From: Antedon mediterranea | Lineage: Eukaryota > Echinodermata > Crinoidea > Comatulida > Antedonidae | Assembly (NCBI RefSeq): GCF_964355755.1 | Contig: NC_092672.1 | Location: 29,818,501 to 29,882,500 of the forward strand | Direction: 5' to 3' | Length of the DNA stretch: 64,000 bases | Shown: piece after piece, positions 10,021 to 61,691 of the stretch | Numbering within the stretch: the stretch's first letter is position 1 | Layout of the letters: every line of letters begins with the position of its first letter | Notes under the pieces: generated by a model | Seen by the model: only the letters and a program-made list of their open reading frames with translations | Databases searched by the model: none | What the model was told of the DNA's origin: nothing | Made by a program: the position numbers and the translations under genes

Positions 10021-13000
10021 ATGATGTATTTGTTTATTTGTTTTTGTTTTCTTTTCAACTTTTTGAATTCTCATGCGGGTGAGTTTATTCTTTTTTTTTT
10101 TCAAATAGATAGTACTAAAATAACAATTTTTAAATGCTGTGATAGGCCAACTTGATATGCATTCTTGCATCTTCACATTGGTATTTTGTGCATTTCAGTC
10201 AAAAATAAACTTGTATATTTTTTTTGTTCAAATGTAAACATATATATAAAAACACTAATTCATAAAACGATTCCAAATTCAATTACAATATTTATGAAAA
10301 TAGTAAATAATGTATTTAAAACACTAGGCCTAATTCATATAGAGAAAAAAAATATAACATAATATATTATGAGAATATTTATTTTCGTCTGTTTAAAAAA
10401 TGTATGTAAATATTATGATATTTGCAGTCTTCTGCTTTAAAATATAATGAATATATTTCTTTGAATGCAAAGAGAATGAAAACAAAAGTATTCATAATTT
10501 TAGATTCTTTTCTTTATTGAAAATAACTTTAAAAATAAATAATGCGTAAACATTTTGGTATGTATGGTACATGAAGTACAATTTTTAATCAACTTATTTG
10601 AAAGAAATATAAAACGACGATAAAGGCATGCAAATACCTATAACTACTTTTTAAAGAATCATTATTTATAACCAATTAAATAAAAATTGTAGATTTCTCA
10701 CAATAATGTATATAAGTGTTTGATTCCTTACACTTATACTTATCTCATATGTACTATAATCCATAGCTCGTTGACAAATCTACACTTTGTAATGAAATAA
10801 AATTGTGTTTCAGCACTCATATCTTATGGAAAGCCAGCAACATCATTGTCTGTATATCCAGGTTCTTCATCTGTATATTCGACTGACGGGAAGGAAAGAG
10901 AACCAGACTGTTTCCATTCAGGTGATATACAGTCTAGACCATCGTAATCTAAAATAAATAATTATGTACAGCAATTCATATATGGTTATACCATGGAGAA
11001 ATAAGTTATATTTCTCCATCCATGGTTATACGAAACTCGCATGGGTTAGGCCTATTTGGTTTGCGCGAGATGAATATTGATACAAAGGCCAACAATAACA
11101 GGTTCAGCTATTTAAGTGTCAAGAATTGCAATTGTAGGAAATTTTATTTTCAGGCTATACTGGGCCACATAGTACGGCGAATATGTACTATTGGCATTAC
11201 CGCCTTGGCTATACGCTATTTAGGGCTATATAACCTTACGTAAACAGATACAAATTCATAACATAAAATATTTACATTTTTTTTAAAGCATACACACAGG
11301 TTGGTGAATGGCTGAAAGTTGATCTTGGAGCAGACTATACGATTACAACAGTGGTCATCATTAATAGAATAAGTAAACTTTTTTATCACAATTATTAAAG
11401 TCATTTTCACCTTCCATTCCACGTACAATTATCATTTTTATACGTATTTAACTTATCATTTTACCTAATAATATATAAATTAATATTATATATTATAAAA
11501 TAATGTAAAAATATATAAAACAACATTATTGTTTTATATATTTGCACATTCTACCAAAGTACTTATATGTTTCATTGTACGTCTTTTTGCTGTTCTTTCA
11601 AAGGACCTCATTGGAAACAAGTCCGTAGAGGACTTTTATGAGTTATCCTTGGCATCCTTTCTTGTTATATTCATGGTTTTTTATATATGCTATTTTTAAT
11701 TTTAATTGTATGTCTGTGATTTTTTTATGTACTGATGCCGAAATAAATCAAATCAAAATCAAATCAAAATCAAATCACTCAAGGCGCTTGCGGAAAACAA
11801 AAGAAAAACTAATCCGTTAACAAAACAAAAAATACCAAATCTAGTCCAATCAAATCCGCATAACTGCTTTTCGTTTCTATAGTACAAAACTCACATTTGT
11901 TTGTTAGTTATGTGAGCATCTCACTAGACAATAAATATCAGAAAGGTGGGGACGGACGCATTTCGTATATTTGTACTTTATGAAATGATGACTGTGTCTT
12001 TTTCTGTTGTTGCTCTTCTTTCTGTTGTTGCCGCCCAACAATGGGCCAGAATTCAAACCCGTTTGGCTTTATGACACTGTTTTTTTGTCTCCTTCTCTCG
12101 TAAGCCCACTTGTATTCATTCTTTCCTGCATATCATAACATAATAATTAGAATTCTCTTTTCCTTTATTTAAACCATTATTATCTAACATATTAAACATT
12201 TGCTTTATGCTTTTTGCTTTAACAAATGCTTTATGTTAATTTCTGAACAAACAAGACTTATTCAAATTATGTGTCAAATCATGATTTTACCAACAATTCA
12301 TGACCAAAGAACATGGTCGGATTGGTATACATTGTGATGTTTTATTTAACATGTTAAACAATTTCGTCAATGGATTTGGCCCACTGTGTGCCGCAGTCAT
12401 TATTGATCGTTACGGTATCATTTTTTATTTTTACGCGTTACGGTATCATTATCGATCGTTACGGGGTATCATTATCGACATTGATGCCACTATCAGTATT
12501 TATCAATATTATTATGATCATCATTACTTTAATCTTGCGTACATCTTCTTTTTTTTTCTTTTTTTTTTTTTTATTCATTTCAAAAAACACAACCATAACA
12601 CAAACTCATTTAAATGTAAAGTAATAGGTTTAAAAAATTACAGTGATCAAACAATATTAAAAACTATAAATTATTAATTCCATTTTTTTAAAGTGAATAA
12701 TTAATTAATTTGGTAAATGCTGTGTTTTCCACATTTATGTAACTAATCTAACTAATACAATTGTATTAATCAAATTAGCCAGAGATATACATTTAATAAC
12801 ATTATTATTATTTTTTCTTTAACATACAGTAATAATAATAAATAATACTCATATACATACACATACATACACACAAATATATCTTAATCTGTACTATAAC
12901 TAAGGAACTATAATATAATTGTGTTAATTAAAATCAGATACATACATTTAACAACATAAACATTTTTTTCTTTAAAATAATACATATATACATGTTTGTA

Positions 13001-16000
13001 ATTATCTGTATTGTGACCGAGGAACTAATAGTAGGTCTATAATAAATAATTAAAAATATCTAACAAGTGAGAATAATAATTTCTGGTTTACATTTTAATT
13101 TAATACAATAATAATAAAGTAATAAATAAAGAGCAAGCGTAATAATAATAATTCACAAAAGTAAGTCATTTCCTCGAGAAACAGTATAATTAAGTTATTA
13201 AATAATTATAATCTTCTATTAATCTCCACTTTTGTCTGAAATTATACAATGTACTTCTTTTAGAAGCAATGTTTTTTTCTACATTATAATTAAATTTTAA
13301 CAGATTAAAGAAAACCTGGAAGACTGGCTTTTTGTGAGTTAATTTAAAATATAATTTTCTTAATCAACAAAATACATAGATTTAATAGCATATCAGGATT
13401 TTCTGTATTGTAGCCAAATAATATGGAGGTTTTTATCAAGGTTAATCTTTGTTTTTGAAATGTTTTCCCACCAAGTCGTGAATTCATCCCATAGTTTGGT
13501 TGCAATGTTACATTCAACCAAAAGATGGGTCATAGTTTCAATATGAACACATATTACTCGGTACAATATTCATTTTATGTAATCTACTATTAGTTGACAA
13601 GCAATTCACATTAATTTTATACTGAAATATTCTGGTTCTTACCTCCTGAGAACATTTAAATGGTAATACATAGATATTTTCCCATTTATCGCTATCTACA
13701 CCTAATTCATCCTGCAATTTACTTTGAGATGTTGGTATTTTAAAGATTTTTTTAATTAAGGCTCTGTATATATTTTTTGTACTCATACTTTCTAATTCTT
13801 TTTCTTCATTCTTTACGTCCACTATAAATCCTCTCTTTTTATAATTTTTTCGTAAAAACCCTAACTTCATGTTTGTTTTCCACTGTGGGGGTATTGCAGA
13901 TATTGTCATTCTCCAGTGCATAAAATTACTTGTCGATAAGCCTCTCTCTATCCGTACATCTTAACTGAATTAAATATTTATCAACAGCATCTAATTATAA
14001 TAATAAACGAATTGCTGGTGCTGTGGTAACGATTAAAACGGATGATATGAGTACAGAAAACACGTGTGGTCATACTGTAACAATTGCCGATTCGTTACGC
14101 GCTCCATTGATTGAATTTACCTGCAACCCACCAATCAGAGGACGCTACGTGAAACTATGGTTTCCGAATAAAATGGAATTCATTACCATTTGTGAAATTA
14201 AGGTCTACACAGATGATTTAAGCCAAAGTAAGTTGTTAGATAAGCTTTTTTTTATAGTAGGCCTATTATATTTACTTTGTTGTTGTTATTTTCTTTGTTT
14301 AACTGCCCGATATAACGACACCTACACCAGTTTAAAGTTTTCGTCCTGAATTATTTGTTTGGATATACAAAAAAGCAATGTCTATTGATTTTCTGGATAA
14401 TCGATATACTGGTGATGTCAGAAAAGTGAAAAATTGAGTATCTGTATCTTTAATAAGGGATCGAAATATTATATGGCGTGCCCTCTTTTGATCTACCCTT
14501 TTGATAAACGCTTAACTTATCTTTTTATTACTTTTTTTTTCAGTTTTAATAATTTAGTTATGTCAATACTGATGTACGACAAGCAAATGTACAGAAACAA
14601 GAGTGGGAAAGATTTTGCAGTCTTACCATAATTGTATAACTTGATATAATATATTTTACTAAACACAAAAAACAGTTCATTTTTTGTTCATATATGAATT
14701 CCAAAGTAGCCTATTCTACGTGGGTCATTTAATGTTCTCAATTTCTAAAGAGCCTCAGTGTGCGACTCCAATCCAAGTCAGTCCATTGAACAAGACTTAC
14801 CATTTACAAGACATATCTGGCAATGGAAATTACTTAAATGGATCACCTGATCTAGAATTTACTACTGGGATTTATGGCGAGCAAGATGAAGCAGTATTGA
14901 TAAACCGAGATATTGGTTCGCAAATAACATTACTCTATGGACACAAAGGCCCAACTTTTACTTTAGCTTTCTATGTTTTTATGAACGACGGTTCAAAAAA
15001 GGCCTTCGTTTATTCCGACTCATTTGAAATCATATTTGCGTTTCCCGTTAAAAATCTACTTCACGTGTCGGAAGTAGCGGTTCATTACAACGTGTATGGC
15101 GAGGTTATTCGTTGCAATGCCTTGCGTTCTGAAGAGTGGACATTTTTTGCTCTTACTTTCAACGGATTCGAAAGAAAAATACGACTTTGGAGAAACGGGG
15201 AGATTGCTTGTATGGCTGATACGGAATTCTCAGAAATCAATTTTGGAAGCATTGTGTTTGGTGGTGACGAGAGTGTAATGAAGATGGCCAAGCTACAGGT
15301 TTACCATGAGAGCCTTGATGAATATGAGATAAAAGAAGCGAGAGACCTGGACAATGTTATTAGGGGTAAGAATCATTGTCTTTAATAGAAATACACATCA
15401 GTTAATGATTATGATTATCAGTTGAAATCATTGTAATCATCACCATAATCACTATAAGTGTGCTGACCTCACGAGCTTGAACCGTCAAACTCGCTATTCA
15501 GTAGATAAACCCAATCCACGACAAAAAATACTGCAACACAATCACTTGTTGACTGACTCTTTAATACAGCAAATTCAGCCATAAACAGGGTAAACTGAAA
15601 TTAAGCATACTTAAATCCAGCTCCAAGTAGTAATAAACATAACATAAATATAAACTATCTGCAAAACAGATCAAACGTAGCGCCCTCTTACGGAGGTGTA
15701 CATGCCTAAAGAACATATTAAACAAAGTCATCAAATAATCAACAGCGCCCTCATACGGACGTACTACTTCTATAGATACGGCATACAAAATAGAACACCG
15801 CCCTCTACACGGAGACTCGTGTTTATCGCCATGCTGTTCAAGCGATCGTATACGATTCAATCTACGCAGGCCTAGGCCTACGACCACAATGTAGTATAGC
15901 ATTAATAATCTAGGCCACTACTGTGGTTCATATAATTCTAATTATTGTAATATAATACTCTAACAACTTACAAGCAATGTGCGGCCTACTAGTTTAGTAA

Positions 16001-19000
16001 ATTACACACTATCTCGGCACAATAAGGCATTTAGAAGCCGAACTCTAGAACACATGTAGTCAATGCGAAACTTATAACATGGATCCTATTTACATACGCC
16101 CTCTCTCGGAAAGGAACGATGCAGCTAAAATAGGAGCAACACACTCCCCGTCTGGTATCTAAAGGATACCATTCATATCAAAAAGTTAAAACATAAACAA
16201 AGTAACAAAGGAATATGACATAATATTCATTATAATAATGTTCAATGTAACTCTTAAGGAGTCGGCATTATCAGTACCAATTCACTAATCGGTCTTGCAA
16301 AGGTTTTCAGTTCTCCACCTCTATAAACAGTCACTTCCACTCTCCTAACTCGTCCGTCTGATCCTTCAATTGCTTTAACGATTCGTCCCAAAGGCCAATC
16401 ATTTCTGACGGTGTCTTTCTCCTTTAGAAGAACAATATCTCCTTCCTTTATATTCCTCTTTTCATGTTGCCACTTGCTTCTGTTCTGAAGTGTAGGGATA
16501 TAGTCTCTTTTCCATTTTGACCAAAATTTGTTAGCCAAGTGCTGTACCGTTCGCCACTGCTTACCATACAAATCAGCATTACAAAACGCTCCAGGAGGTG
16601 CTGCGAATGGTTGAGACTTTTGAGTAAGTAGAGTGTTTGGTGATATTATTTGTGGTGATTCAGGATCAGTAGAGACTTCTACTAAGGGTCGTGCATTAAT
16701 AATTCCTGATACTTCTGCCATTAGCGTTACCAGGACTATACCATCTATAATCTTCCTTGCTACTCCAATCATACGTTCCCAACTTCCTCCCATACGGGAT
16801 GCATGAGGCGGGTTGAACACCCACTCACATTCACGGGTCAATAGATAGCGTTTAATTTTATCTTGTCCTTCTTTCTGAATACTTTCACCCAAGATATTGC
16901 ACGCACCAACACAATTCGTCCCACAATCTGACCGTTGTTGTTTCGCAGGACCTCTTATCGCAAAGAATCTTCTAAGGGCATTCAAGCAGCTTGAGGTATC
17001 CATACACTCTATAACCTCTATATGGACAGCCCGACTACACATGCAAGTAAACAAAATGGCCCATCGTTTTCCGTTTGCTTGTCCACCCCTTGTGCGCCGT
17101 GTTCGTACCATCCAAGGACCGAATACGTCAAGCCCTACATATGTGAATGGGGGAGCTGATGTTAAGCGTTCCTTAGGTAAATCAGCCATTTTCTGTGTCT
17201 CTTGCTTTCCTCTCTGCTTCTTGCAAACTACACACTTCCCAAGCTCCTTTGAGATTGACCTCTTGCCACCTATTATCCAGAAGCCTTCACTACGTATTCT
17301 GCCATGTGTTAGGTGTCTGCCTTGGTGTTGAACTTGTTGGTGGTAGTGGCGGATGATTAATGTTGTGACATGGTGATGTTTGGGAAGAATCATAGGATGC
17401 GCTCCTTCTTTGGCTAGTCCCATTTCTAAACGTCCTCCAACTCGCATGACTCCCTCGTTATCCAAATAAGGTGTAAGCTTTACTAGCGTACTTGTCTTGG
17501 GAAGATGTTTTCCATTCTTCATGTGATTGATTTCAGCTGTGAATTCATCAAGTTGAGCACATTTCACTACAATCTGTTTTGCCTTAATCAATACAGGTGG
17601 TGGAATCATGCATACATGCCACCCACTACAGTCTTTTTTCTTGGTTTCTGTGAATGTACAAGCAATATGCACAAGACTTCCAATTGCTCGCACAAGATTT
17701 CCCCAATTCGAAAATCTGCTAAATCGCTCGGATCCCAGTGATTTGGCTGACTGAACTTCTGTACCACTGGTAGCTACGACAGGTCTTACTTCGGGATGCT
17801 CTTCAATTTCACTGATGTCACAGACCGTTGTGTTTCTCTCACACGAGTTCTTATTAAGTAGGAATCTTGGTCCTTGAATCCATGCCGAGTTCTGTAAGTC
17901 TTTAGCCTTGATGGATCTTGTAGCTTGATCGGCTGGGTTTATATCTGTTTTAACATATTTCCATTGTTCTGGTTTGGTCGACTGAAGAATCTGATCCACT
18001 CTGTTCGCCACGTACATGTAGAACCTACGGGTTTTATTTCTAATATAACCGAGAACGACCTTGCTATCGGTGTAAAAATGTGTGGCATCCAAGTTAAAAT
18101 CCAATTCAGTTTTAACACATTTTGCGACTTCTGCGGCAAGTACTGCTCCGCACAACTCTAAGCGTGGTATTGATGTCGCAGCTTTAGGTGCTAGCTTTGC
18201 CTTTCCAACAACAACACTCAAGTGAACTTCTCCCACTTTATCAGTAATTCTGATGAGGTAAGACACAGCGCCAATGGCTGTGTTAGAAGCATCAGAGAAT
18301 GTGTGGAGTTCTCTCTGGATGGACTGGTTTGATGGAAATGATGTATAAGGACGAGGGATCAGAACATCTGACAGTTGAACTATGGAGCTTCGCCACTTCT
18401 GCCATGAATCATGTAGCTGTTTCGGTAATGGCTCATCCCAATCTATGCATTGATTTCTTGTCATTTCCCTTAACAGCCTTCTTCCCTCTATAATGACGGG
18501 TGACGCAAAGCCAATTGGGTCATATATGCTGTTGATTTCTGACAGCACTCCTCGCTTAGTGAATGCCTTGCTGCTAACCTCCGTAATAGAGAAAGTAAAA
18601 GCATCTGACTTGACATCCCACAGTACCCCTAATGACCTTTGCATAAGAGGAGCGTCAGATCCGAGATCGAGGTTGCACATGTTACTTGCTACATCTTGAG
18701 ATGAGAAAGCAGCTATCACTTTTGCATCGTTTGAGACAATCTTGTGTAATCGTAAATTAGCTGTGGCTAACATGGCTTGTGTGCGCTTGAGCAGGTCGAT
18801 CGCCTCATCTGAAGTAGCTAAAGACTTCAGCCCATCATCGACATAAAAATTCTTCTCCACGAACTCTCTTGCATCTGCGCCAAACTCGCTCTCTCCTTCT
18901 TGTGCAGTCTTTCTCAGTCCTAGCGTAGCAACAGCTGGAGAAGGTTTGTTTCCGAAGATGTGAACTTTCATCCGATACGTTCTCAATACTTTGCTGGGGT

Positions 19001-22000
19001 CGTTGTCTTCGAACCACAGGAACCGAAGATAATCTCTGTGTTCTTCCACGACTTGAAATGAGTAGAACATTTGCTCAATGTCTGCTACAAACGCCACAGG
19101 ATCCTGCCTGAACCGTATCAATACACCAAGCAACCCATTTACCAGATCTGGTCCACTCATTAACACGTTGTTAAGTGATGTATCTTGGAATTGCGCACTG
19201 GAATCAAAAACCAACCGGATCTTCCCTGGCTTTTGTGGATGGTACACACCAAAGTGTGGTAAATACCAGCACTCTTCATCATGACTGTCATCTTCGACGA
19301 GCTCAGCATGTTGCTTTGAGAATACTTTCTCCATGAACGCTAAGTAGTGAGCTTTCATCTCTGGCTTCTTATCCAGTGTGCGAATAAGAGACTGCATACG
19401 ATTCATTGCTTGCTGCTTGTTGTTGGGTAACCTTTTTCTTTCTTCTCGAAAAGGAAGTGGGGCTATCCAATTTCCTTGTTCACCTCGTTTCATCTCTTTT
19501 CCCATAAGTTGCACGAACTCCACATCTTCTCTGGACATTCCATACTTCTCGTCATCTTCTTTCTGTTGGAATACATTACCACCGAGTACGTCACAGCTGC
19601 GTTGCAGGGTTATTTCCTTCGCACTGATCATTCCTTTACAAGTTGTAAACATGGCGGATGGCCTACCATTTCTCAAAACCTTTATATGGTTTCTGTTGGC
19701 GGTGACAACATTCTTTTGGTGGGCTCCCCCTAAGCAGACGTCGCCAATAACCATCCAGCCTAGATCAAGTCGTTGGCCCCATGGAGAGTGATTTGGTCCA
19801 TTGCGTACTTCTCGGACTTTATGAGCTTGAGCAGCGTCTCGGCCGAGCAGTATGGTAATATTTGCATTCTCATCCAAGGGTGGTATCTTGTCCGCAATAT
19901 CCTTCAAGTGAGGAAAATTGCTGGCTGTCTCTGGAGTGGGAATTTCTGCCTTGTTCCCAGGTATGTCATTACATTCAAGTAGCGATGGGGCTGCTATTCT
20001 TGTTTTACCATCCATGGACTCAATTATCAGCTTCTCCAGTTTTCGGCCTTGAACTTCAGCCGCTCCCGAACAGGTCTTCAAAGTATACGACGTAAGTCTT
20101 GCATTGATGTTAAAAAGGTCGAATACCTCACTCTTGGCCAACGAGCGATTGCTTTGGTCGTCTAGTATTATGTAGGTTTTTATGAAAGTGTTAGGATGGT
20201 CTTCTAAATATATTTTTGCTAAACAAATTTTAGCACACGATCGGCTCAGCCCAATTCCACCGCAGGCATCCGTACATGTAGTACTTACTACTTTGTCTCT
20301 TTCCTTCGTCTTCTGTGACTCTGTCCCCTGCTCCCCGCCATTTGCCTTCTCACCTTTTGCCTTTTGCTTCATTTTTACTTGCTCCCCGCCATTTGCCTTT
20401 TGCTCCACTTTTACTTGTTCCCCGCCATTCGCCTTCTGCGGACGGTCACCATGGAATGCAGTCGGGTGACGATCACTACCGCATTCTCCACACCTGACAT
20501 TTCTATCACAATTCCTAGCCATGTGTGATGTAGATGAGAGACATCGGAAACATACTTGGTTTTCCTTAAGGGATGACTTCTTGGCAGCATAAGTCTTGGC
20601 CAGAAAGTTTCTACAGTCTACCAACGGATGCTGACCATTGTGTAGCGGACACATCCCTTCAGATTTATTCACCTCAGTCATTCTCACATTTACAGTTGAA
20701 CGTAGCGTGGTCTTAGGACGGTAACCTGTCTGTGTACGGTAGTTTCCCGGTGTATCAGTTTTGACCTCATCAACAATTCCTCTTGGGACATCAGGATCAC
20801 GTTGGATGTGAGCCATCTCACTTAGAAACTCTGTGAAAATGTTGAAATTCGGGAACGTTTTCATTTTCCTTTTATGTTTTGCGACCTTTTCTCTCCATTT
20901 ATTAATTATGAAGTATGGTAACTTCTCTACAATTGGTTTAATACCTTGAGGAGTGTTTAACGTAATCAGATGGGGTAGCTCCTGCATTTGAGCAACTGCG
21001 TCTCCACACAAATCAGCCAGTTCTTGGAGTGCGGTCAAATCACCTGCTTTGAATCTTCTGTATTTGGTAAGTCTCAGGATGATTTCAGCTGATATTAAGG
21101 TTTGGTTCCCGAACCTGTCTTCTAGCTCAGTCCAGGCCTCATGATAGGCCTTGTCAACATCTTCAACATGCCTTAGTCTGAATCGATCAACCAAAACTTT
21201 TGCTTCGCCAGTAGTATATTTACACAGGAATGACAGCTTTTCAACAGTGTCCACACAGGCTGTTTTCACCATAGCTTCAAAGGATCTTTTCCACGGAAGA
21301 AACATTATTGGATCCCCAGAATAAATATCCGGTTCTTGCAAGGGTAATCGCTGACGTGCCAGTATTCGAATGTACTCCTGCATATGATTTGGTTCGTAAG
21401 ATCTAGCTCCAGGATTAAGAGTAGACGTTGGTACCTCTACAGCATTGTTTAGATAATTTTCTACCCGCTGACTGGGTTCCATCTTTGGAAGTTCGTTAAG
21501 CACCTCTGCCATTCTTTGACTGGGTACTGCATCTTGGGGTGTGCCTTGCACCTCTTCCATCTGATTATTGCTTTCTAACTGTGAAAGCTCTTCCTCAATA
21601 TCTTCAAAAGATATATGTTGCAATTCTGCTTGAAGGGCATTGGCTCTAGCCTGTGCTGCAGCCATTTCTTCTTCTTTCTCTACTTCGTCTATGTCTAACT
21701 CAGCCTTCAACGCCTCTAACTTGGCGGCACTCTTCTTCTTCGCAAATGTAACACGAGCTTTCGCTACAGCAGCATCAGCACGAGCTTGTGCAGCAGATAC
21801 TTCTAATGATGACACTGACTGCGATGATGCCTTCGATCTATGGCTCCTTGACCCTATTGACCTTGCTTCATCTCTCGCACCATCACGTCTTCTACTAGAA
21901 GTCGACATTGCTTTTCACTGTGCTGACCTCACGAGCTTGAACCGTCAAACTCGCTATTCAGTAGATAAACCCAATCCACGACAAAAAATACTGCAACACA

Positions 22001-23179
22001 ATCACTTGTTGACTGACTCTTTAATACAGCAAATTCAGCCATAAACAGGGTGAACTGAAATTAAGCATACTTAAATCCAGCTCCAAGTAGTAATAAACAT
22101 AACATAAATATAAACTATCTGCAAAACAGATCAAACGTAGCGCCCTCTTACGGAGGTGTACATGCCTAAAGAACATATTAAACAAAGTCATCAAATAATC
22201 AACAGTGCCCTCATACGGACGTACTACTTCTATAGATATGGCATACAAAATAGAACACCGCCCTCTACACGGAGACTCGTGTTTATCGCCATGCTGTTCA
22301 AGCGATCGTATACGATTCAATCTACGCAGGCCTAGGCCTACGACCACAATGTAGTATAGCATTAATAATCTAGGCCACTACTGTGGTTCATATAATTCTA
22401 ATTATTGTAATATAATACTCTAACAACTTACAAGCAATGTGCGGCCTACTAGTTTAGTAAATTACACACTATCTCGGCACAATAAGGCATTTAGAAGCCG
22501 AACTCTAGAACACATGTAGTCAATGCGAAACTTATAACATGGATCCTATTTACATACGCCCTCTCTCGGAAAGGAACGATGCAGCTAAAATAGGAGCAAC
22601 ACAATAAGACTGATTGTGATTATGGTGATGATTACAATGATTTCAACTGATAATCATATATCATTATTTAGTATTACTTCACTGAGTGTCATCATCATCA
22701 TCATAAACGTATTCATTTCATTTATTGTTTTGTTATCGTTATTATCAACATATATATTCATTGTATTCTTGCATGTTGTTTCTGGTGTTTGATTCATAAC
22801 TTCTTTTTGTTCATATCTTTTCTAAAAAGTACTATAGTTTAAGGAATTTTCTAATAACAATGCCGTTTTTACTGTCGCCTTTGTCTTTTTATTCTGACTT
22901 ATAAGTAGTATACATTTTAATTATTTTGCAGGTGATGAATGCTCGAAACCAAACCTTTTCCACGTCCACGTTTCCACAACTGGAAATGCGCCACCATCGG
23001 TTATAAGCCGTTCTTCTTCACACTCGGAGGTCTTCTGCGTATTGAAATGTCGCAGAAACATAAATTGTTTCGGAATTATTTATAATCACGAAACACAAAG
23101 CTGGGAAGAATTTAACGGAAATAATTTGTCAAATATTGAGACAGATTTAATTCGCAAGTACTACGTAGCAGTTCGGTAA
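10021..23179 (+). CDS. Copy 1: secreted FTP lectin - LamG - PAN protein (six exons, intact frame)
   Basis: Exons: 10021-10078, 10814-10921, 11289-11372, 13988-14227, 14751-15365 and 22932-23179, all with GT/AG borders and phase-1 introns; they total 451 codons including the stop. Exon 1 is a signal peptide (MMYLFICFCFLFNFLNSHA). Exons 2-4 (about residues 20-163) form a fucolectin-type F5/8C domain: YGKPATSLSVYP, CFHS, EWLKVDLGADYTITTVVI, NNKRIAG, TCNPPIRGRYVKLWFP, ICEIKVY. Exon 5 (about 164-368) is a laminin-G_3/concanavalin-like jelly-roll: DISGNGNYL, WTFFALTFNG, GSIVFGGDES, LDEYEIKEARDL. Exon 6 (about 369-450) is PAN/apple-like with ECSKP, FCVLKCRRNINCFG. The usual fourth-loop Cys (QSCEEF in copies 3 and 4) is Trp here. 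Domain types suggest an extracellular glycan-binding protein, perhaps an immune lectin. Intron 3 holds two LINE fragments and intron 5 a 7.1-kb BEL element. Exon structure is inferred by comparison among copies. Confidence 0.8.
10993..11019. repeat. Intron 2 hairpin, conserved between copies
   Basis: The perfect 10-bp inverted repeat ATGGAGAAAT/ATTTCTCCAT flanks a 7-base loop in intron 2. The same element occurs at 26521-26547 and 52406-52432, with single mismatches in copy 4 (41793-41819), copy 3 (about 36468-36494) and copy 6. It sits in a longer conserved block that also carries a direct repeat of ATGGTTATA. It may be a relic of a small inserted element shared by the ancestral unit. Confidence 0.6.
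11562..11778 (+). mobile_element. Short LINE/SINE 3' end with (AAATC)n tail in intron 3 of copy 1
   Basis: The other copies run directly from CTACCAAAGTAG into TCAAGCCGCTTG. Copy 1 has about 217 bp inserted between those blocks. The insert reads like a 3' UTR, with GGACCTCATTGGAAAC near its start and GATGCCGAAATAAATC before a tail of AAATC repeats. This is typical of a 5'-truncated non-LTR retrotransposon or a SINE mobilised by one. Confidence 0.65.
12401..12481. repeat. Intron 3 short tandem repeat (GATCGTTACGGTATCATT type)
   Basis: Three to four imperfect copies of a roughly 18-bp unit with core CGTTACGGTATC lie in intron 3. The same cluster is found at 27707-27779, 37656-37725, 42977-43049 and 53584-53653, so it was present in the ancestral unit. 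It contains the palindromes ATCGAT/CGATCG. No function is evident. Confidence 0.65.
12548..13952 (-). mobile_element. 5'-truncated L1-like LINE in intron 3 of copy 1, with 10-bp TSD
   Basis: The insert is flanked by the direct repeat CGTACATCTT at 12538-12547 and 13953-13962; the other copies have this word once, in GTACATCTTAACT. On the minus strand a poly(A) tail appears as T-rich sequence at 12549-12572. The coding remnant 13921-13538 (127 aa) reads SKLQDELGVDSDKWENIY, CSQEVRTRIFQYKINVN and CLSTNSRLHKMNIVP. The frame-shifted sequence after it reads ETMTHLLVECNIATKLWDEF. This is the zinc-knuckle-like C-terminus of an L1/Tx1-type ORF2. Only the 3' end of the element is present. Confidence 0.85.
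15411..15452. repeat. Left arm of a 42-bp inverted repeat around the BEL insertion
   Basis: These 42 bases are the exact reverse complement of 22616-22657. The other units carry only the left arm, with minor changes. Removing the BEL element and one copy of its target duplication leaves a 42-bp-stem, 13-base-loop hairpin in intron 5 of copy 1. Confidence 0.9.
15459..16143 (-). repeat. BEL element 3' LTR
   Basis: 685 bp, TG...CA bounded. It matches 21919-22603 except at three positions, corresponding to TAAACTG/TGAACTG, CAGCGCC/CAGTGCC and GATACGG/GATATGG. The 113-aa minus frame inside both LTRs is a by-product and not treated as a gene. Confidence 0.95.
16144..16153 (-). other. Polypurine tract of the BEL element
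   Basis: Read on the minus strand this is AGACGGGGAG, a purine run immediately before the 3' LTR. It is the expected primer site for plus-strand DNA synthesis. Confidence 0.7.
16254..21908 (-). CDS. BEL/Pao Gag-Pol polyprotein
   Basis: 1884 aa in one frame. Residues 35-115 are an Ala/Glu/Lys-rich coiled coil. A DUF1759 gag-like region follows (about 180-350; ARQRLPLQEPDIYSGDP...FLPWKRSF). A zinc knuckle VCFRCLSSTSHMARNC lies near 453 and a second CGECG motif follows. A Gly/Lys-rich linker with repeated KANGGEQVK units leads to a DUF1758-type aspartic protease (YIILDDQSNRSLA, about 580). The reverse transcriptase has FVADIEQMFYSFQV and the catalytic FYVDDG near 1023, then an RNase H-like region (HTFSDASNTAIGA, FYTDSKVVLGY). 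The integrase has an HHCC zinc-binding part (HYHQQVQHQG...CVVCKK) and core motifs YVGLDVFGPW, RSDCGTN and NPPHASRMGGSWERMI. A DUF5641 tail (WPLGRIVKAIEGSDGRVRRV) ends it. No internal stop is seen, so it may be active. Confidence 0.97.
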   Translation of the reverse strand: MSTSSRRRDGARDEARSIGSRSHRSKASSQSVSSLEVSAAQARADAAVAKARVTFAKKKSAAKLEALKAELDIDEVEKEEEMAAAQARANALQAELQHISFEDIEEELSQLESNNQMEEVQGTPQDAVPSQRMAEVLNELPKMEPSQRVENYLNNAVEVPTSTLNPGARSYEPNHMQEYIRILARQRLPLQEPDIYSGDPIMFLPWKRSFEAMVKTACVDTVEKLSFLCKYTTGEAKVLVDRFRLRHVEDVDKAYHEAWTELEDRFGNQTLISAEIILRLTKYRRFKAGDLTALQELADLCGDAVAQMQELPHLITLNTPQGIKPIVEKLPYFIINKWREKVAKHKRKMKTFPNFNIFTEFLSEMAHIQRDPDVPRGIVDEVKTDTPGNYRTQTGYRPKTTLRSTVNVRMTEVNKSEGMCPLHNGQHPLVDCRNFLAKTYAAKKSSLKENQVCFRCLSSTSHMARNCDRNVRCGECGSDRHPTAFHGDRPQKANGGEQVKVEQKANGGEQVKMKQKAKGEKANGGEQGTESQKTKERDKVVSTTCTDACGGIGLSRSCAKICLAKIYLEDHPNTFIKTYIILDDQSNRSLAKSEVFDLFNINARLTSYTLKTCSGAAEVQGRKLEKLIIESMDGKTRIAAPSLLECNDIPGNKAEIPTPETASNFPHLKDIADKIPPLDENANITILLGRDAAQAHKVREVRNGPNHSPWGQRLDLGWMVIGDVCLGGAHQKNVVTANRNHIKVLRNGRPSAMFTTCKGMISAKEITLQRSCDVLGGNVFQQKEDDEKYGMSREDVEFVQLMGKEMKRGEQGNWIAPLPFREERKRLPNNKQQAMNRMQSLIRTLDKKPEMKAHYLAFMEKVFSKQHAELVEDDSHDEECWYLPHFGVYHPQKPGKIRLVFDSSAQFQDTSLNNVLMSGPDLVNGLLGVLIRFRQDPVAFVADIEQMFYSFQVVEEHRDYLRFLWFEDNDPSKVLRTYRMKVHIFGNKPSPAVATLGLRKTAQEGESEFGADAREFVEKNFYVDDGLKSLATSDEAIDLLKRTQAMLATANLRLHKIVSNDAKVIAAFSSQDVASNMCNLDLGSDAPLMQRSLGVLWDVKSDAFTFSITEVSSKAFTKRGVLSEINSIYDPIGFASPVIIEGRRLLREMTRNQCIDWDEPLPKQLHDSWQKWRSSIVQLSDVLIPRPYTSFPSNQSIQRELHTFSDASNTAIGAVSYLIRITDKVGEVHLSVVVGKAKLAPKAATSIPRLELCGAVLAAEVAKCVKTELDFNLDATHFYTDSKVVLGYIRNKTRRFYMYVANRVDQILQSTKPEQWKYVKTDINPADQATRSIKAKDLQNSAWIQGPRFLLNKNSCERNTTVCDISEIEEHPEVRPVVATSGTEVQSAKSLGSERFSRFSNWGNLVRAIGSLVHIACTFTETKKKDCSGWHVCMIPPPVLIKAKQIVVKCAQLDEFTAEINHMKNGKHLPKTSTLVKLTPYLDNEGVMRVGGRLEMGLAKEGAHPMILPKHHHVTTLIIRHYHQQVQHQGRHLTHGRIRSEGFWIIGGKRSISKELGKCVVCKKQRGKQETQKMADLPKERLTSAPPFTYVGLDVFGPWMVRTRRTRGGQANGKRWAILFTCMCSRAVHIEVIECMDTSSCLNALRRFFAIRGPAKQQRSDCGTNCVGACNILGESIQKEGQDKIKRYLLTRECEWVFNPPHASRMGGSWERMIGVARKIIDGIVLVTLMAEVSGIINARPLVEVSTDPESPQIISPNTLLTQKSQPFAAPPGAFCNADLYGKQWRTVQHLANKFWSKWKRDYIPTLQNRSKWQHEKRNIKEGDIVLLKEKDTVRNDWPLGRIVKAIEGSDGRVRRVEVTVYRGGELKTFARPISELVLIMPTP
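21919..22603 (-). repeat. BEL element 5' LTR (promoter LTR)
   Basis: 685 bp, near-identical to 15459-16143. Its downstream end on the minus strand (21919) lies only ten bases before the polyprotein ATG at 21908. That leaves almost no leader, and I see no obvious tRNA-complementary primer-binding site starting TGG at the usual position. Confidence 0.95.
22616..22657. repeat. Right arm of the 42-bp inverted repeat
   Basis: Exact reverse complement of 15411-15452. It follows the BEL target duplication and seven unique bases. It is absent from the equivalent intron of the other copies. Confidence 0.9.
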
Positions 23180-25040: not shown

Positions 25041-25674
25041 TGTTTTGGACTCGTCTGTTGTAGAATATAATATTAACTAAATTTAATGAAAATATAGTAA
25101 ATACGTCATTATTGAGAGGCTGTAGCTAATTAGAATACGAAAATCCATCGAGATCAATGGCCATTTTTGAAATGTAGAGAAGTCTTATGCGTTGCTGACG
25201 TCAAATAGAAATAAATAGTTAATTAATATTGATACATTACAACCGGTACTCTATAGTTTGGCCTAAAATATTAACAATTTTTCATTTTATGGTCACAATA
25301 AATGGTAATTATCTCTTAATTTTTTTAACACATCATACATACTCACGTTTGTATTGTTTGTCTTGTTGTTTGAATATGTATGCAAGCGTAGTAGGATTAC
25401 AATGTCAGTTTATTAACAGAAAGAATGTAACCAACATACATTCTTCGGAAATAGTAACAAGTCAATCCGTTTTACAAGAGAAAAACTTAAGCGAAGTCAT
25501 GATGTATTTGTTTATTTGTTTTTGTTTTCTTTTCAACTTTTTGAATTCTCATGCGGGTGAGTTGATTCTTATTTTTTTCTTCAAATAGGTAGTACTAATA
25601 CAAATTGTTGTTTTGTGCATTTAAGTAAAAAAAAATTGGTATTTTTTTGGCTAAAATGCAACTAATTCATAACA

Positions 25675-25797
25675 AGGCCAACAGCCATTAAGTCGCGTGC
25701 TACAATGCATAGTGATACCGGACCGACACACAGACTGACAGACCGACAGACAGACCGACCGACATAGTGAACTAGAGAGTCGCGTCCACGCGACTAA
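25675..25797. mobile_element. Short MITE/SINE-like insertion with GACAGACCGAC repeats
   Basis: Copy 4 reads ACTAATTCATAAAAACATTCC, whereas copy 2 has about 120 extra bases between those blocks. The insert is GC-richer than its surroundings. It has AAGTCGCGTGCTAC near its left end, a simple run of GACAGAC/CGACCGAC words and the near-palindrome AGTCGCGTCCACGCGACT at its right end. It is probably a small non-autonomous element; the family is unknown. Confidence 0.6.
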
Positions 25798-34297: not shown

Positions 34298-34512
34298 GTG
34301 ATGAATGCCCAAAACCAAACCTTTTTCACGTTAAGCCAACTGGAACTGCGCCACCATCGGTTATAAGCCGTTTTTCTACACACTCAGTGGTCGTCTGCGC
34401 ATTAGAGATGTCGCAGAAACATAAATTGTTTCGGAATTATTTTTAATCACGAAACAAAAAGCCGTGAAGAATTTAACGGAAATAATACTGAACCAGATTT
34501 AATTCGTCGTGT
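34298..34512 (+). pseudogene. Orphan exon 6 (PAN-like) remnant
   Basis: After an intact acceptor (TATACAG) the frame reads DECPKPNLFHVKPTGTAPPS. It then shifts at GCATTAGAGATGTCGC (one extra base against GTATTGAGATGTCGC), losing the Cys pattern and ending in TAA. No exons 2-5 precede it. Its duplicate at 59118-59332 has in addition lost the acceptor. Confidence 0.8.
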
Positions 34513-47511: not shown

Positions 47512-47962
47512 ATGATGTATTTGTTTATTTGTTTTTGTTTTCTTTTCACCTATTTGAATTCTCATGCGGGTGAGTTGATTCTTATTTTTTTCTTCAAATA
47601 GGTAGTACTAATATAAACATTTTGAAATGCTATGATAGGCCAACTTGATATGTATTCTTACATCTTCAGATAGGTGTTTTGTGCATTTCAGTCAAAAAGA
47701 AACTTGTATTTTTTTCTAAAATGCATTTAAACATAGTAAACATATATTTAAAAATAATTAATTAATAAAAACATTCCAAAAATTCAATTACAATATTTAT
47801 GAGAATAGATAATCTATTTAAAACACTAGGCCTAATTCATATAGAAAAAAAATATACTTATTGTTGATCACGAAACAAAAAGCTGTGAAGAATTTTAACG
47901 GAAATAATTTGTCAAATATTGAGACAGATTTAATTCGCAAGTACTACATAGCAGTCTGGTAA
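47512..47962 (+). pseudogene. Exon 1/exon 6 fusion remnant of a deleted array unit
   Basis: Exon 1 (47512-47569, MMYLFICFCFLFTYLNSHA) has a normal GTGAGT donor and is followed by about 300 bp of intron 1. The sequence then jumps near 47871 directly into the second half of exon 6 (GATCACGAAACAAAAAGCTG ... AGTACTACATAGCAG). Exons 2-5 and the first half of exon 6 are missing. An extra T in GAATTTTAACGG shifts the remaining frame. This marks an internal deletion of one whole unit. Confidence 0.85.
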
Positions 47963-51188: not shown

Positions 51189-51524
51189 AGGTCACTGTGT
51201 GTTTTTAAATTATGCATTTAAATAGTTAATCAATATTCATTACAATCGGTAATCTATAGTTTTGCCTCAAATATGAACAATTTAAATTTTTACATTTATG
51301 ATCAAGTTTTGTTCACTATAAATTTAAATTATTATATTGTTAACACATCATGCATACAAACGTTTGTATTGTTTTAGTGTTACATTAAAAATTATTTTAA
51401 TATGTATGCAAGCGTAGTAGGATTACAATGCCAGTTTATTAACAGAAAGAATGTAACCAACATACATACTTCGGAAATAGTAACAAGTCAATCCGTTTTA
51501 CAAGAGAAAAACTTAATCGAACTC

Positions 51525-54500
51525 ATGATGTATTTGTTTATTTGTTTTTGTTTTCTTTTCACCTATTTGAATTCTCATGCGGGTGAGTTTATTTTAATTT
51601 TTTTCTTCAAGCAGGTAGTACTAATATAACAATTTTGAAATGCTATGATAGGCAACTTGATATGCATTCTTACATCTTCAGATTGGTGTTTTGTGTATTT
51701 CAGTCCAAAAAATGTGTTTTTTTTGTGCTAAAATGCATTATTAAAGCACAGTAAACATATATTTAAAAATAACTAATTCATAAAAACATTCCAAATTCAA
51801 TTACAATATTTATGAGAATAGTAAATAATGTATTTAAAACACTAATTCATATAGAAAAAAAATATAATGTAATATTTATGAGAATGTTTATTTTCGTGTG
51901 TTTAAAAAATGTATGTAAATATTATTATGATATTTGCAGTCTTCTGCTTTAAAATATAATGAATATAGTTCTTTGAAAGAGAATGAAAAAAAACGGTCTA
52001 CATAATTTTAGATTCTTTTCTTTATTAAATTACATTTTTCTTATGTACAATTTTTAATAAACGTATTTGAAAGAAATATAAAACTAATAATAAATTTAAG
52101 ATTTATAGCTAATAGAAAAGAATTTTGGAACGACGATAAAGGAATGAACATATCGCTACTTTTTAAAGAATCATTATTTGTAACCAATTAAATCAAAATA
52201 GTAGATTTCTTATCTCATTTATGATTTACTCATATCTTATGGAAAGCCTGCAACATCATTGTCTGTATATCAAAGTTTTCTACCTGTATATTTGACTGAC
52301 GGGAAGGAAATAGAACCAGGCTGTTTCCATTCAGGTGATATACTGTCTAGGCCACCGTAATCTAAAATAAATAATTATGTACAGCGATCCATATATGGTT
52401 ATACCATGGAGAAATAAGTTATATTTCTCCATCCATGGTTATATACGAAATTCGCATGGGTTAGGCCTATTTGGTTTGCGCGAGATGAACATTGATACAA
52501 ATGCCAACAAAGGGATTTGGCGTTTTTTCATCGATTTTGGCATAAAACTTATTCCATTCGTGAAACTGTAATTCAGCTATTCAAGTGTCAAGAATTGCAA
52601 TTGAGGAGATTTTATTTTCGGGCTATACTGGGCCACAGAAATATGGCGAATATTTACTATTGGCCGCCTTGGCTATATGCTATTTAGGGCTATAACTTTA
52701 CGTAAACAGATACAAATTCATAACATAAATATTTACATTTTTTAAATCACAAACACAGGTTGGTGAGTGGCTGAAAGTTGATCTTGGAGCCGACTATACG
52801 ATTACAACAGTGGTCATCATTAATAGAATAAGTAAACTTATTTATCGCAATTAATAATGTCATTTTCACCTTCCATTCCACGTACAATTATCATTTTTAT
52901 ACGTATTTAACTTATCATTTTACCTAATAACATATAAAAATAATATAATATATTATAAATAATATATAAATATATAAAACAATATTATTGTTTTATATAT
53001 TTGCACATTCTACCAAAGTAGTTAAGGCACTTGTGGAAAACAAAACAAAAATTACCAAATCTAGTCAAAACTCCACATAACTGCTTTCCGTTTACTATAG
53101 TACAAAACTCACATTTGTTTGTTAGTTATGTGAGCGTCTCACTAGACAATACAAATCAGTAGGGTGGGGACGGACGCATTTTGTATAATTATTTGTACTC
53201 TATGAAATGATGACTTTTTGGCTTTTCCTGTTGTTGTTGCCGCCAAACAATGGGCCAGAATTCATTTATGACTTTGGTTTTTTTTCTCCTTCTTTCTTAT
53301 AGCCCACTTTTATTCATTCTTTCATATCCTAACATAATAATTAGAATTCTCCCTTTATATAAACCATTATTATCTAACATATTTAACATTTGTCCACTTA
53401 AATTATTTATGTCATTTTCTGAACAAACAAGACTTATTCAAATTATGTGTCAAATCATGATTTTACCAACAATTCATGACCAAAGAATATGGGTGGTTTA
53501 TTATACTTTGTGATGTATCATTCCTTAACCAGTAAAACAATTTCGTCAATGGATTTGGCCCACTGTGTGCCGCAGTCATTATTGATCGTTATGTTATTCA
53601 TTTTTTATCGTTACGGTATCATTATCGATCGTTACGGTATCGTTATCGATGTCACTATCACTATTGATATCAATATTATTATGATCATCATTACTTAAAT
53701 CTTACGTACATCTTAACTTAATTAAATATTTCTAAACAGCTCCATCTGATTTTAACAATGAACGAATTGCTGGTGCTGTGGTAACTATTAAAACGGATGA
53801 TATGAGTACAGAAACCACGTGTGGTCATACTGTAACAATTGCCGATTCGTTACGCGCTCCATTGATTCAATTTACCTGCAACCCACCAATCAGAGGACGC
53901 TACGTGAAACTATGCTTTCCGAATAAAAAGAAATTCATTACCATTTGTGAAATTAAGGTCTACACAGATGATTTAAGCCAAGGTAAGTTGTTAGATAAAC
54001 CTTTTTTTTTAAATAGTAGGCCTATTATTAACTTATCTTTGTATTACTTCTTTTTCAGTTTTAATAATTTAGTTATACTCATGTACGACAAGCCAATGTA
54101 CAGAGACGAGAGTGGGAAAAGATTTTGCACTCTTACCATAATGTTATAACTTGATATAATATATTTCAATAAACACAGAAAACCGTTAATAATTTGTTCA
54201 TATGATACCAAAATTAGCCTATTCTACGTAGGTCATTTGATGTTCTAAATTTTACAGAGCCTCAGTGTGCGACTCCAATCCAAGTCAGTCCATTGAACAA
54301 AACTTTCCATTTACAAGACATATCTGGCAATGGAAATTACTTAAGTGGATCGCCTGATATAGCATTTACTACTGGTATTTATGGCGAGCAAGATGGAGCA
54401 GTATTGATAAACAAAGATATTGGTTCGCAAATAACATTACTCTATGGACACAAAGGCCCAACTTTTACATTGGCTTTCTATGTTTTCATGAACGACAGTT

Positions 54501-56826
54501 CGAAAAAGGCCTTCGTTTATTCCGACTCATTTGAAATTATATTTGCGTTTCCTGTTGATCATCTGTTTCATGTGTCAGAGGTAGCGGTTAATTACAACTT
54601 GTATGGTGAAGTTATTCGTTGCCATGCCTTGCGTTCTGAAGAGTGGACATTCTTTGCTCTTACATTCAACAGATTCGAAAGAAAAATACGATTTTGGCGA
54701 AACGGGGAGATTGCTTGTATGGCTGATACGGAATTCTCGGAAATCAATTTTGGAAGCATTGTGTTTGGTTGCGACGAGAGTGTAATGAAGATGGCCAAGC
54801 TACAGGTTTACCGTGAGAGCCTTGATGAATATGAGATCAAAGAAGCGAGAGACCTGTACAAGGTTATTAGGAGTAAGAATTATTGTCTTTAGTAAATAGA
54901 CATATACATCAGTTAATGATTATGATTATCAGTTGAAATAATTGTAATCATCATCATATTCACTATCAGTGTCACCATCATCATCATCATCATCATCATA
55001 AATGTATTCATTTTATTTATTGTTTTGTTATCGTTATTATCAACAAATATATTCATTGTAGTCTTGTTGTTTCTGGTGTTTAATAATAACAATAACAACT
55101 TTATTTAAAAACGGATGCAACACTTGAATCACCATATTGGTGTTTTTCACAAGGCCGTTACTTACTACAAAACTATTTATACTATTACACAAGTTATTAA
55201 TTACAGTACAAAAACAACAACAACAAAAAAAAAAAAAAAAAAAAAAAAGATTTCATGAAAAAATATAGAGTTTCAAGTATATTTTATCTTTGGTCATTTA
55301 TCATTTTTTTAAATATATGTATATTAGGAGCTGTAATTGCATTTGAGTTTATAGCATTTAAACTATTCCATAGCTTTGCGCCAGAATACGAGAAACTTTT
55401 CTTTTTATACTCAGTGTTTGCCTTATGTAAACTTAGAATATCTTTTGATCTAGTATTATATGTTTGTTTGCGTTCATAGAATCTGTTTCTTAAGTAGGAT
55501 GGTGTCAAGTTATTCATTATTTTATACATTGTGACTGCTTCGTTGTAATATTGTTTTTCTTCTAAATTAGGCCAATTTAAATCTTTGAGCGCCTGTGAGC
55601 TAGAGTCATACCTAGATGTATGTGTAATTATTTTAGCCGCTCTATTTTGGAGTACTTGGAGTTTATATTTGAGGGTTTGGTTACAACGACCCCATACTAC
55701 ATTGCAGTAGTCAAAATGGTGGGCTATGATAGATTTGTACATTAATGACTGAATATTTTGAGGGAAAATATTGCTGCATTTTTTTAGATAGTACAGACCT
55801 GATATTACTTTATTTTTCACCTGATCTATTTGTTTATGCCATTTTAAATTTTCATCGATAATAACACCTAAATGTTTACAGTTATTTACCTTTTCAAGTT
55901 TTGTACCGTCTATATTAATATTAATATCCATGTTAATCAATTTATTTAATTTTTGATGTGTTCCTAAAATTATATATTCAGTCTTTTTAATGTTTAGACT
56001 TAATTTGTTACTTGCTAACCATAGTTGTACATGTTTTAGATCAGTATTTACTTTGCTTATTATATCGTGTATGTCTTTAGATGCATAATATAACGCAGTG
56101 TCATCTGCGTACATGCTTACATTTACATGAGAAACTGAGTTAGGTAGATCATTAATATACATGATAAATAGAAGGGGACCTAATATTGATCCCTGAGGGA
56201 TTCCACAAACACTATTAGACTTTACCGAATCAACATTGTTAATATTAGTAATATGTGTACGATTTGTTAAATAATTTTCAAACCATTTGATAACATGATT
56301 AGCAAAATTAAAATTGTGTAGTTTTTTTTATTAGTATCTGGTGATTAACAGTGTCGAAAGCTTTTTTGAGATCAAGCATTATTAGTCCTATGTATTTACC
56401 ATAACGATCCTTTTATGCATATTTTTGTATCCTTTCTAAAATTAGTACTATAGTTTATAGTAAGGTATTTTCTAATAACAATGCTGTTTTACTGTCGCCT
56501 TTGTCTTTTTATTCGGACTTAGAAGTAATATACATTTTTATTATTTTGCAGGTGATGAATGCTCGAAACCAAACCTTTTCCACGTCCACGTTTCCACAAC
56601 TGGAAATGCGCCACCATCGGTTATAATCCATTCTTCTACACACTCGGAGGTCTTCTGCGTATTGAGATGTCGCAGAAACATAAATTGTTTTGGAATTATT
56701 TATACTCATGAAACACAAAGCTGTGAAGAATTTAACGGAAATAATTTGTCAAATATTGAGACAGATTTAATTAGAAAAAATTTTAAAAAGTACTACGTAG
56801 CAGTCCGGCAAAACTGTTGTAATTGA
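51525..56826 (+). pseudogene. Copy 5: FTP-LamG-PAN gene with two lost splice acceptors
   Basis: Exon positions: 51525-51582, about 52230-52334, 52748-52831, 53740-53982, 54258-54872 and 56552-56826. Frames of exons 1, 4, 5 and 6 are open. The end of intron 1 is deleted, so exon 2 follows TTTATGATTTACTC with no usable AG. The exon 3 acceptor AAAG is AAAT at 52744-52747. In exon 4 the Trp of KLWFP is Cys. Exon 6 is a variant that ends AVRQNCCN instead of AVR. Intron 5 holds a LINE fragment. An in-frame AG within exon 3 (CTGAAAG/TTGATCTT) could partly rescue splicing, but would lose EWLK. Probably non-functional, or expressed without a proper FTP domain. Confidence 0.7.
55082..56408 (-). mobile_element. 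5'-truncated LINE in intron 5 of copy 5
   Basis: The other copies run from TTTCTGGTGTTTGAGTCATAACTCC to TTTTATGCATA. Here that join is replaced by about 1.3 kb. On the minus strand the RT begins at LKKAFDTVNHQ, breaks frame near 56325, and continues GIPQGSILGPLLFIMYINDLP, VSMYADDTALYYA (catalytic YADD) and LWLASNKLSLNIKKTEYIIL. The open part 56162-55284 (292 aa) ends in a normal tail (YNTRSKD, KLWNSL). The 3' end is A-rich with a T/A/G microsatellite. Eleven host bases (GAGTCATAACT) were lost at the insertion. Confidence 0.85.
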
Positions 56827-59117: not shown

Positions 59118-59332
59118 ATGATGAATGCCCAAAACCAAACCTTTTTCACGTTAAGCCAACTGGAACTGCGCCACCATCGGTTATAAGCCGTTTTTCTACA
59201 CACTCAGTGGTCGTCTGCGCATTAGAGATGTCGCAGAAACATAAATTGTTTCGGAATTATTTTTAATCACGAAACAAAAAGCCGTGAAGAATTTAACGGA
59301 AATAATACTGAACCAAATTTAATTCGTCGTGT
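59118..59332 (+). pseudogene. Orphan exon 6 remnant, duplicate of 34298-34512
   Basis: Same frameshifted PAN-like sequence as its partner. The acceptor word TATACAGGTGATG has become TGAATGATG, so even the splice site is gone. Confidence 0.8.
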
Positions 59333-60357: not shown

Positions 60358-61691
60358 ATGATGTATTTGTTTATTTGTTTTTGTTTTCTTTTCAACTTTT
60401 TGAATTCTCATGCGGGTGAGTTGATTTTTATTTTTTTCTTCAACTTATAGTAAGTACTAATATAAACATTTTGAAATGCTATGATAGGCCAACTTGATAT
60501 GTATTCTTACATCTTCAGATTGGTGTTTTATGCATTTCAGTCAAAAAGAAACTTTTGCTAAAATGCATTTAAACATAGTAAACATATATTTAAAAACAAC
60601 TAATTCATAAAAACATTCCAAATTTAATTACAATATTTATGAGAATAGTAAAATGTATTTAAAACACTAATTCATATACAAAAAATATAATGTAATATTT
60701 ATGAGAATATTTATTTTCGTGTGTTTAAAAAATGTATGTAAATATTATGATATTTGCACTCTTCTGCTTTAAAATATAATGAATATAGTTCTTTGAAAGA
60801 GAATAAAAAAAAACGGTCTACATAATTTTAGATTCTTTTCTTTATTAAAGTACATTTTTCTTAAACAATTTTTAATAAACGTATTTGAAAGAAGTATAAA
60901 ACTAATAATAAATTTAAGATAGAATAGAATTATGGGTACTTTTTAAAGAATCATCATTTATAACCAATTAAATCAAAATAGTAGATTTCTTAATAATTTA
61001 TATAAGTGTTTGATTCCTTATAATTATCTCATGTACTTAAATGCATAGCTCGTTGACAAATCTACATTTTGTAATAAAATAAAATCGTATTTCAACACTC
61101 ATATCTTATGGAAAGCCAGCAACATCATTGTCTGTATATCAAAGTTTTCTACCTGTATATTCGACTGACGGGAAGGAAAGAAACCCAGACTGTTTCCATT
61201 CAGGTGATAATATACTGTCTAGGCCACCGTAATCTAAAATAGATAGTTATGTACAACGATCCATATGATTATACCATCGAGAAATGAGTAATATTTCTCC
61301 ATCCATTGTTATATACAAAATTCGCATGGGTTAGACCTATTTGATTTGCGCGAGATGAAAATTGATACAAAGGCCAACAAAGGTATTTGGCGTTTTTCAT
61401 CGATCTTGGCATAAAACTGATTCCATTCATGAAACTGCTATTTATTTAAGTGTCAAGAATTGTAATTGAGGAAATTTTATTTTCGGGCTATACTGGGCCA
61501 CAACAACATGGCGAATATTTATTATTGGCCGCCTTGGCTATACGCTATTTAGAGCTATAACTAAAACAGATACAAATTCATAACATAAATATTTACATTT
61601 TTTAAAGGACAAACACAGGTTGGTGAATGGCTGAAAGTTGATCTTGGAGCCGACTATACGATTACAACAGTGGTCATCATTAATAAAATAA
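60358..61691 (+). pseudogene. Copy 6: 5' part of an FTP-LamG-PAN gene, cut by a LINE
   Basis: Exon 1 (60358-60415), exon 2 (61096-61203) and exon 3 (61608-61691) are present; exons 4-6 are not in the window. The exon 2 acceptor TTTCAG is TTTCAA here. An in-frame AG eight codons inside the exon (AAGCCAG/CAACATC) could be used, dropping the start ALISYGKP of the FTP domain. Exon 3 ends IINK, as in copy 3. From about 61960 intron 3 is occupied by a LINE that reaches the window edge. Whether the rest of the gene lies beyond is unknown. Confidence 0.7.

Follow-up and report, generated by a model that had tools for sequence, protein, structure and literature searches.

The 64,000-nucleotide window analysed here (Antedon mediterranea, contig NC_092672.1, positions 29,818,501 to 29,882,500 of the forward strand) holds part of a tandem array of a six-exon gene. 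The gene encodes a predicted signal peptide followed by an F-type lectin (FTP) domain, a LamG_3-like exon and a PAN exon. To judge from the sequence, the array genes probably encode a chimeric F-type lectin that is secreted and serves as a soluble recognition protein; we put the probability of this reading at about 0.55. Plain coordinates are window positions, and the prefixes C1, C2, C3, C5, C6 and C10 mark chromosome coordinates in the genome that was searched (354 Mb, 18 contigs).

An exon map of the window, built with copy 3 as the reference, shows five whole six-exon units and half of a sixth, arranged head to tail on the + strand, with first exons at the start positions of the six copies in Table 1. 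The map confirms the tandem repetition of a six-exon gene that an earlier note on this DNA had proposed, at coordinates (10021..61691) that proved correct; of the six units counted there, five are complete in the window, but the sixth lies only half inside it and the array runs on past the edge. Copy 3 has AG/GT at all junctions and only phase-1 introns, and it splices into an open frame of 451 aa. Self-matches in the window reach 5,623 bp at 97% identity, far above chance. One segmental duplicate (31573-37151 / 56400-61961; 5.6 kb, 97% identical) runs from the last part of one unit into the first part of its neighbour. A 22-bp tandem repeat (32173-32299, 57001-57128 and 48148-48189) follows two of the PAN exons and also the collapsed remnant on their downstream side. 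As delimited by close LamG matches, the whole array occupies C3:29703329-29958106, approximately 255 kb, with 15 units; an additional intact six-exon copy, of 457 aa, is found on C5.

Table 1. Units of the array, remnants and inserted element in the window (window positions).
Feature	Position	Strand	Details
Copy 1	10021..23179	+	exons 10021-10078, 10814-10921, 11289-11372, 13988-14227, 14751-15365, 22932-23179; open frame 450 aa
BEL/Pao LTR (long terminal repeat) retrotransposon	15459..22603	-	in copy 1 intron 5; LTRs 15459-16143, 21919-22603, 99.6% identical; ~7 kb
Copy 2	25499..31983	+	broken
Lone PAN-exon remnant	34298..34506	+	decayed
Copy 3	35538..39798	+	intact; exons 35538-35595, 36288-36395, 36799-36882, 37812-38054, 38578-39192, 39551-39798; 451 aa
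Copy 4	40920..45009	+	broken
Collapsed remnant	47512..47962	+	exon 1, then 3' part of exon 6 within 0.3 kb
Copy 5	51525..56811	+	broken; repeat breakpoint at 52222/52228
Lone PAN-exon remnant	59119..59306	+	decayed
Copy 6	60358..61691	+	exons 1-3 in window; exons 4-6 past window edge, window-equivalent 65421-67407

The FTP domain of copy 3 exceeds the Pfam cut-offs directly (PF22633, F5_F8_type_C_2, 46 bits against 27.8; PF00754, 34.1 against 28.2), and a phmmer search of the PDB with copy 3 finds FBP32 (3cqo, E 3.6e-16) and the eel lectin 1k12 (E 9.8e-9). The other two modules were assessed through relatives in the same genome. Exon 5 of copy 3, the LamG exon, is 34-44% identical to exons on other chromosomes and matches the best relative exon that passes Laminin_G_3 with E 2e-19. 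Three relatives (L034, L035 and L036) pass Laminin_G_3 with 40.4, 36.6 and 36.9 bits (cut-off 27.6), and the exons that follow their LamG exons pass PAN_1 with 24.1, 24.3 and 27.2 bits (cut-off 21.4). A PAN profile built from seven exons matches TgMIC4 (3.1e-6) and the HGF N-domain (4.7e-4). The proposed order of signal peptide, FTP, LamG and PAN is thus supported, for the FTP by Pfam directly and for LamG and PAN by way of these relatives. The intact proteins are short (450-457 aa), and a Pfam scan of copy 3 reports no EGF, Sushi, vWA or collagen parts. No 19-residue Kyte-Doolittle window of copy 3 that starts past residue 16 exceeds 1.17; the leader, together with the absence of any other strongly hydrophobic segment, suggests a soluble secreted protein.

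F-type lectins carry the fucose motif HX24RXDX4(R/K), and deviations from it may mean another specificity or a loss of binding, according to the available part of PMC5712786. In alignments of the five intact proteins, the C5 copy included, the histidine and the second arginine of this motif are kept, while the first arginine is R or K, often lysine. The spacing is longer, with residues inserted ahead of the second arginine, and the exon 3/4 junction falls at the same place. Compared with the cation motif h2DGx, the sequences STDGK, ATDGV and ATDGI keep the DG but deviate at its neighbours.

Across the genome at least 46 loci with a LamG exon were found, all genome search counts being lower bounds. 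An FTP exon 4 lies upstream, within 5 kb and on the same strand, in 41 of the 46, and a kringle exon within 2.5 kb in 13. This set leaves out the second piece of a split exon (C3:29952150) and a 31-residue scrap (C3:29698285), and the comparison took 46 of 82 FTP exon 4 matches and 15 of 76 kringle matches, chosen by position. The 16 close loci, comprising the 15 units on C3 and the C5 copy, all have the FTP exon and none has a kringle; among the 30 remote loci 25 have an FTP exon, 13 a kringle and five neither. In L034 and L036 a kringle exon (79.9 and 76.0 bits; Kringle cut-off 34.3) stands ahead of LamG, with the FTP exon further upstream. A second kringle-less array, of eight units, lies at C6:19719617-19786484 (19.72-19.79 Mb; L041, L042). 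Two stretches fetched from it are 99.98% identical across 4,500 bp, which would reflect either a very recent expansion or an effect of the assembly. FTP, LamG and PAN exons follow in a row there, and in the two units read the comparison, which covers exons 2-6, aligns without a stop. The LamG of L041 passes Pfam (36.4 bits), and single FTP exons of this array remain under the Pfam cut-off. On these alignments and profile scores, the window gene is best described as a kringle-less branch of an FTP-(kringle)-LamG-PAN family, and not as a lone invention; the idea of a unique three-domain protein was rejected in view of this wider family. Dense, separate arrays of F5/8C exons are also present at C2:23972498-24000327 and C10:24495604-24502786, among the strongest matches listed.

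Within the C3 array, four of the 15 units are intact, which here means free of frame and splice-site lesions, ten are broken and one was left unclassed. The intact units are copies 1, 3 and 9 and a distal unit near C3:29957489; copies 1 and 3 are the only ones of this kind in the window, and in copy 1 one PAN cysteine is replaced by tryptophan, though the frame is open. Copies 2 and 7 share a frameshift in exon 4 and a stop close to the end of exon 5, and both have stops in exons 5 and 6. Copy 4 carries a stop in exon 5 and an in-frame deletion in exon 2; in copy 5 the acceptors of exons 2 and 3 lack AG, and in copy 6 the exon 2 acceptor is AA. Beyond these, copy 8 has frame lesions in exons 4 and 6, copy 10 an exon 4 frameshift, and the unit near C3:29703329 an exon 1 frameshift. 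Two units were judged from matches and not read whole: the one near C3:29930053 has one TAA in LamG exon 5, and in the one near C3:29952150 LamG is split across frames. In the unclassed unit, near C3:29945157, exons 4-6 are open and exons 1-3 were not found in the 6.4 kb read upstream. The lesions in copies 2, 4, 5 and 6 led us to reject six working genes in the window. Assembly errors could account for some of the broken frames, but copies 2 and 7 have common lesions, and their shared exon 4 frameshift points to duplication of a unit that was already broken.

LamG is under purifying selection and is the most constrained module, with dN/dS of 0.21-0.32 in all six pairs compared. Comparison of copies 1, 3 and 9 with the C5 copy gives a dN/dS of 0.33-0.38 over the whole gene, 0.31-0.36 for FTP and 0.61-0.71 for PAN. 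Inside the array FTP gives 0.94, 1.29 and 3.29 and PAN 0.31-2.48, values that rest on small counts of changes (FTP synonymous 1.0-5.5), so that a ratio above 1 is no proof of positive selection. Fisher tests of FTP plus PAN against LamG gave p values of 0.004, 0.050, 0.041, 0.150, 0.119 and 0.037 for six non-independent pairs. The description of these lectins as fast-changing consequently holds in part: it fits the FTP inside the array, on few changes, but neither LamG nor the FTP when compared with C5, and fast change throughout was rejected because LamG is constrained. Synonymous distance from C5 is 0.80-0.89 for FTP and 0.31-0.40 for LamG, and inside the array LamG is instead the more distant of the two (FTP 0.01-0.06, LamG 0.12-0.19); this variation by domain points to mosaic histories.

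The array units recombine: in unit 9, exons 1-3 of one type are followed by the later part of another. Of the sites that distinguish units 3 and 10, exons 1-3 of the intact unit 9 have 17 unit-3-like sites, none unit-10-like and one like neither, compared with 4, 46 and 1, respectively, in exons 4-6 (Fisher p 1.8e-12). Exon 4 is mixed (3 unit-3-like, 5 unit-10-like), while exon 5 has 0 and 31. The switch falls in intron 3, approximately 1,750 bp from the ATG and within the FTP domain; the first 750 bp have no clear preference. Comparison of unit 9 with units 8 and 10 gives the same switch (p 4.8e-15). Tested against units 3 and 10, unit 2 is likewise mosaic (p 1.7e-4); units 1 (p 1.0) and 5 (p 0.32) show no such pattern. 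The distal unit is 58-59% identical to copies 1, 3 and 9 in FTP and 94-98% identical in PAN.

F-type lectins such as eel agglutinin (1k12) and FBP32 (3cqo) have the FTP domain in common with the array protein, as judged by profile and by PDB sequence search. They are often joined to other modules (PMC5712786, in its available part), and the array protein is likewise; it differs from them in departing from HX24RXDX4(R/K) and in having one FTP followed by LamG and PAN, an order not found in our literature search. The same part of PMC5712786 describes a Xenopus pentraxin-fucolectin fusion (Xla-PXN-FBPL), in which an F-type lectin and a pentraxin, a concanavalin-like module, occur in one chain; this protein has a pentraxin and several FTP domains, whereas the array protein has one FTP, a LamG_3-like module and PAN. 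Cnidarian Polydom has these three kinds of module side by side in its pentraxin-PAN-FA58C core, but in another order and in a longer matrix protein with Sushi and CUB, and with FA58C where the array protein has FTP (PMC12549020, in its available part). Genes of the FTP-kringle-LamG-PAN type in this genome, among them L034 and L036, have the same exon order and related FTP, LamG and PAN exons; they differ in the kringle between FTP and LamG, which is absent from the array, and their LamG is approximately 33% identical to that of copy 3. A literature search, thin on subscription journals, found no description of FTP or fucolectin combined with PAN, apple, LamG or kringle, and the available text of PMC3269628 and PMC12549020 does not describe the module combination. 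Automatic annotations may well list such proteins. To call this an undescribed system, as had been suggested, is too strong, since F-type lectins joined to other modules are known (PMC5712786, available part) and a wider family exists in the genome. The array protein appears instead to be a chimeric F-type lectin, a known kind in a new variation, with a module set that we did not find named in print.

The array has expanded through segmental duplication; its units have recombined between exon blocks, and the majority are broken. If the array proteins are soluble recognition lectins, the FTP domain would bind a glycan through the modified site described above, in which the histidine and second arginine are kept, the first arginine is often lysine and the spacing is changed. 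LamG may serve as a conserved scaffold or as a second binding face, and PAN may bind a protein or sugar partner or aid oligomerisation. The likeliest use would be to bind foreign glycans, microbial ones among them, in mucus or coelomic fluid, and an immune role is plausible. We would rank the predicted uses with a recognition lectin of fluid or mucus first, a matrix or adhesion protein second and gamete recognition third.

Several results weigh against a recognition lectin with these modules. None of the five intact proteins (copies 1, 3 and 9, the distal unit and the C5 copy) contains the fucose motif, searched for as HX24-26RXDX4(R/K). Profile searches with copy 3, a check that the earlier note had named, placed FTP above its cut-off but LamG (15.5 bits against 27.6 for Laminin_G_3) and PAN (16.1 against 21.4 for PAN_1) below theirs. 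The LamG of the C5 copy (19.6 bits) and the PAN of L041 in the C6 array (17.7 bits) are under the same cut-offs. A LamG profile from seven exons matches PTX3 alone in the PDB, and weakly (best E 0.084), so that the LamG label depends on Pfam by way of the relatives. Structure prediction, another check named there, yielded no usable model: AlphaFold runs on single exons from the window copies gave mean pLDDT values of 31.8 for LamG and 46.4 for PAN, too low to use. Finally, the predominance of broken units in the array casts doubt on selection for repertoire size.

A rather unlikely alternative is that the genes encode an extracellular-matrix or adhesion protein, comparable to the Polydom core. 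The available part of PMC12549020 shows that Nematostella Polydom joins the same three kinds of module, and both the strong constraint on LamG (0.21-0.32) and the non-canonical fucose motif would fit such a role. The array proteins are short for it, though, at 450-457 aa, the Pfam scan of copy 3 turned up no EGF, Sushi, vWA or collagen module, and tandem expansion with heavy decay would be unusual for structural matrix genes. We consider it improbable that the array is mainly a graveyard, in which segmental duplication scattered a single gene among transposons and no more than one or two of the copies are of consequence. The ten broken units against four intact and one unclassed, the duplication of a unit already broken (copies 2 and 7) and the retroelements found throughout are what such a history would leave behind; yet four units are still open, the C5 copy has diverged under constraint, and the second kringle-less array on C6, with eight units, has exons 2-6 without a stop in the two that were read.

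Gamete recognition, in the manner of oyster sperm bindin, itself an F-type lectin, is highly improbable. A reference title in the available part of PMC5712786 calls the oyster protein a combinatorial fucose lectin, and FTP dN/dS is around 1 or above inside the array, on few changes; against this, FTP is constrained in comparison with C5 (0.31-0.36) and LamG is constrained throughout, and a match to Bindin of the common echinoderm type is present in the genome as well. Bindin is an echinoderm sperm protein. Its profile gave a single match, at C1:15552879-15553076 (-), with 107 bits (E 2.3e-28) and one stop inside the matched stretch. This match supports an echinoderm source, and the eleven large contigs would suit a feather star; a search of the assembly for COX1 gave no match. 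A bolder proposal, to which we give very little credence, is that the array is a cassette reservoir, in which broken and intact units swap exon blocks and new lectin specificities arise by recombination of halves of the binding domain. Switches would then fall in intron 3 inside FTP and between domains, LamG would be the constrained scaffold, and the exchange would have produced the intact unit 9 as well as the mosaic distal unit.

The BEL/Pao element in copy 1 (Table 1) has a Peptidase_A17 match of 152 bits and a perfect 5-bp direct repeat at its ends, and the near-identity of its LTRs indicates that it is young. A non-LTR retrotransposon at 5420-9516 (-) has an open endonuclease-reverse transcriptase frame (RVT_1, 115 bits) with a 203-aa frame upstream; GDIHPNPGP occurs near the N-terminus, and we take this to resemble a 2A-like sequence. 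A 42-bp unit is repeated over positions 1-2208 (52.6 copies with 94% matches), and more than one reading frame of this array is open. Scanning the window with Rfam gave no match.

Taken as a chimeric F-type lectin, the window gene belongs to a multi-copy, secreted, lectin-like family with a module set of FTP, optional kringle, LamG and PAN. With 46 LamG loci, two arrays, one largely decayed and the other nearly identical in the two units read, and recombination in blocks, this family is well suited to showing how modules are gained and lost in recognition proteins. If it is true that the proteins are inducible glycan binders, they would add a distinct branch to echinoderm innate immunity.

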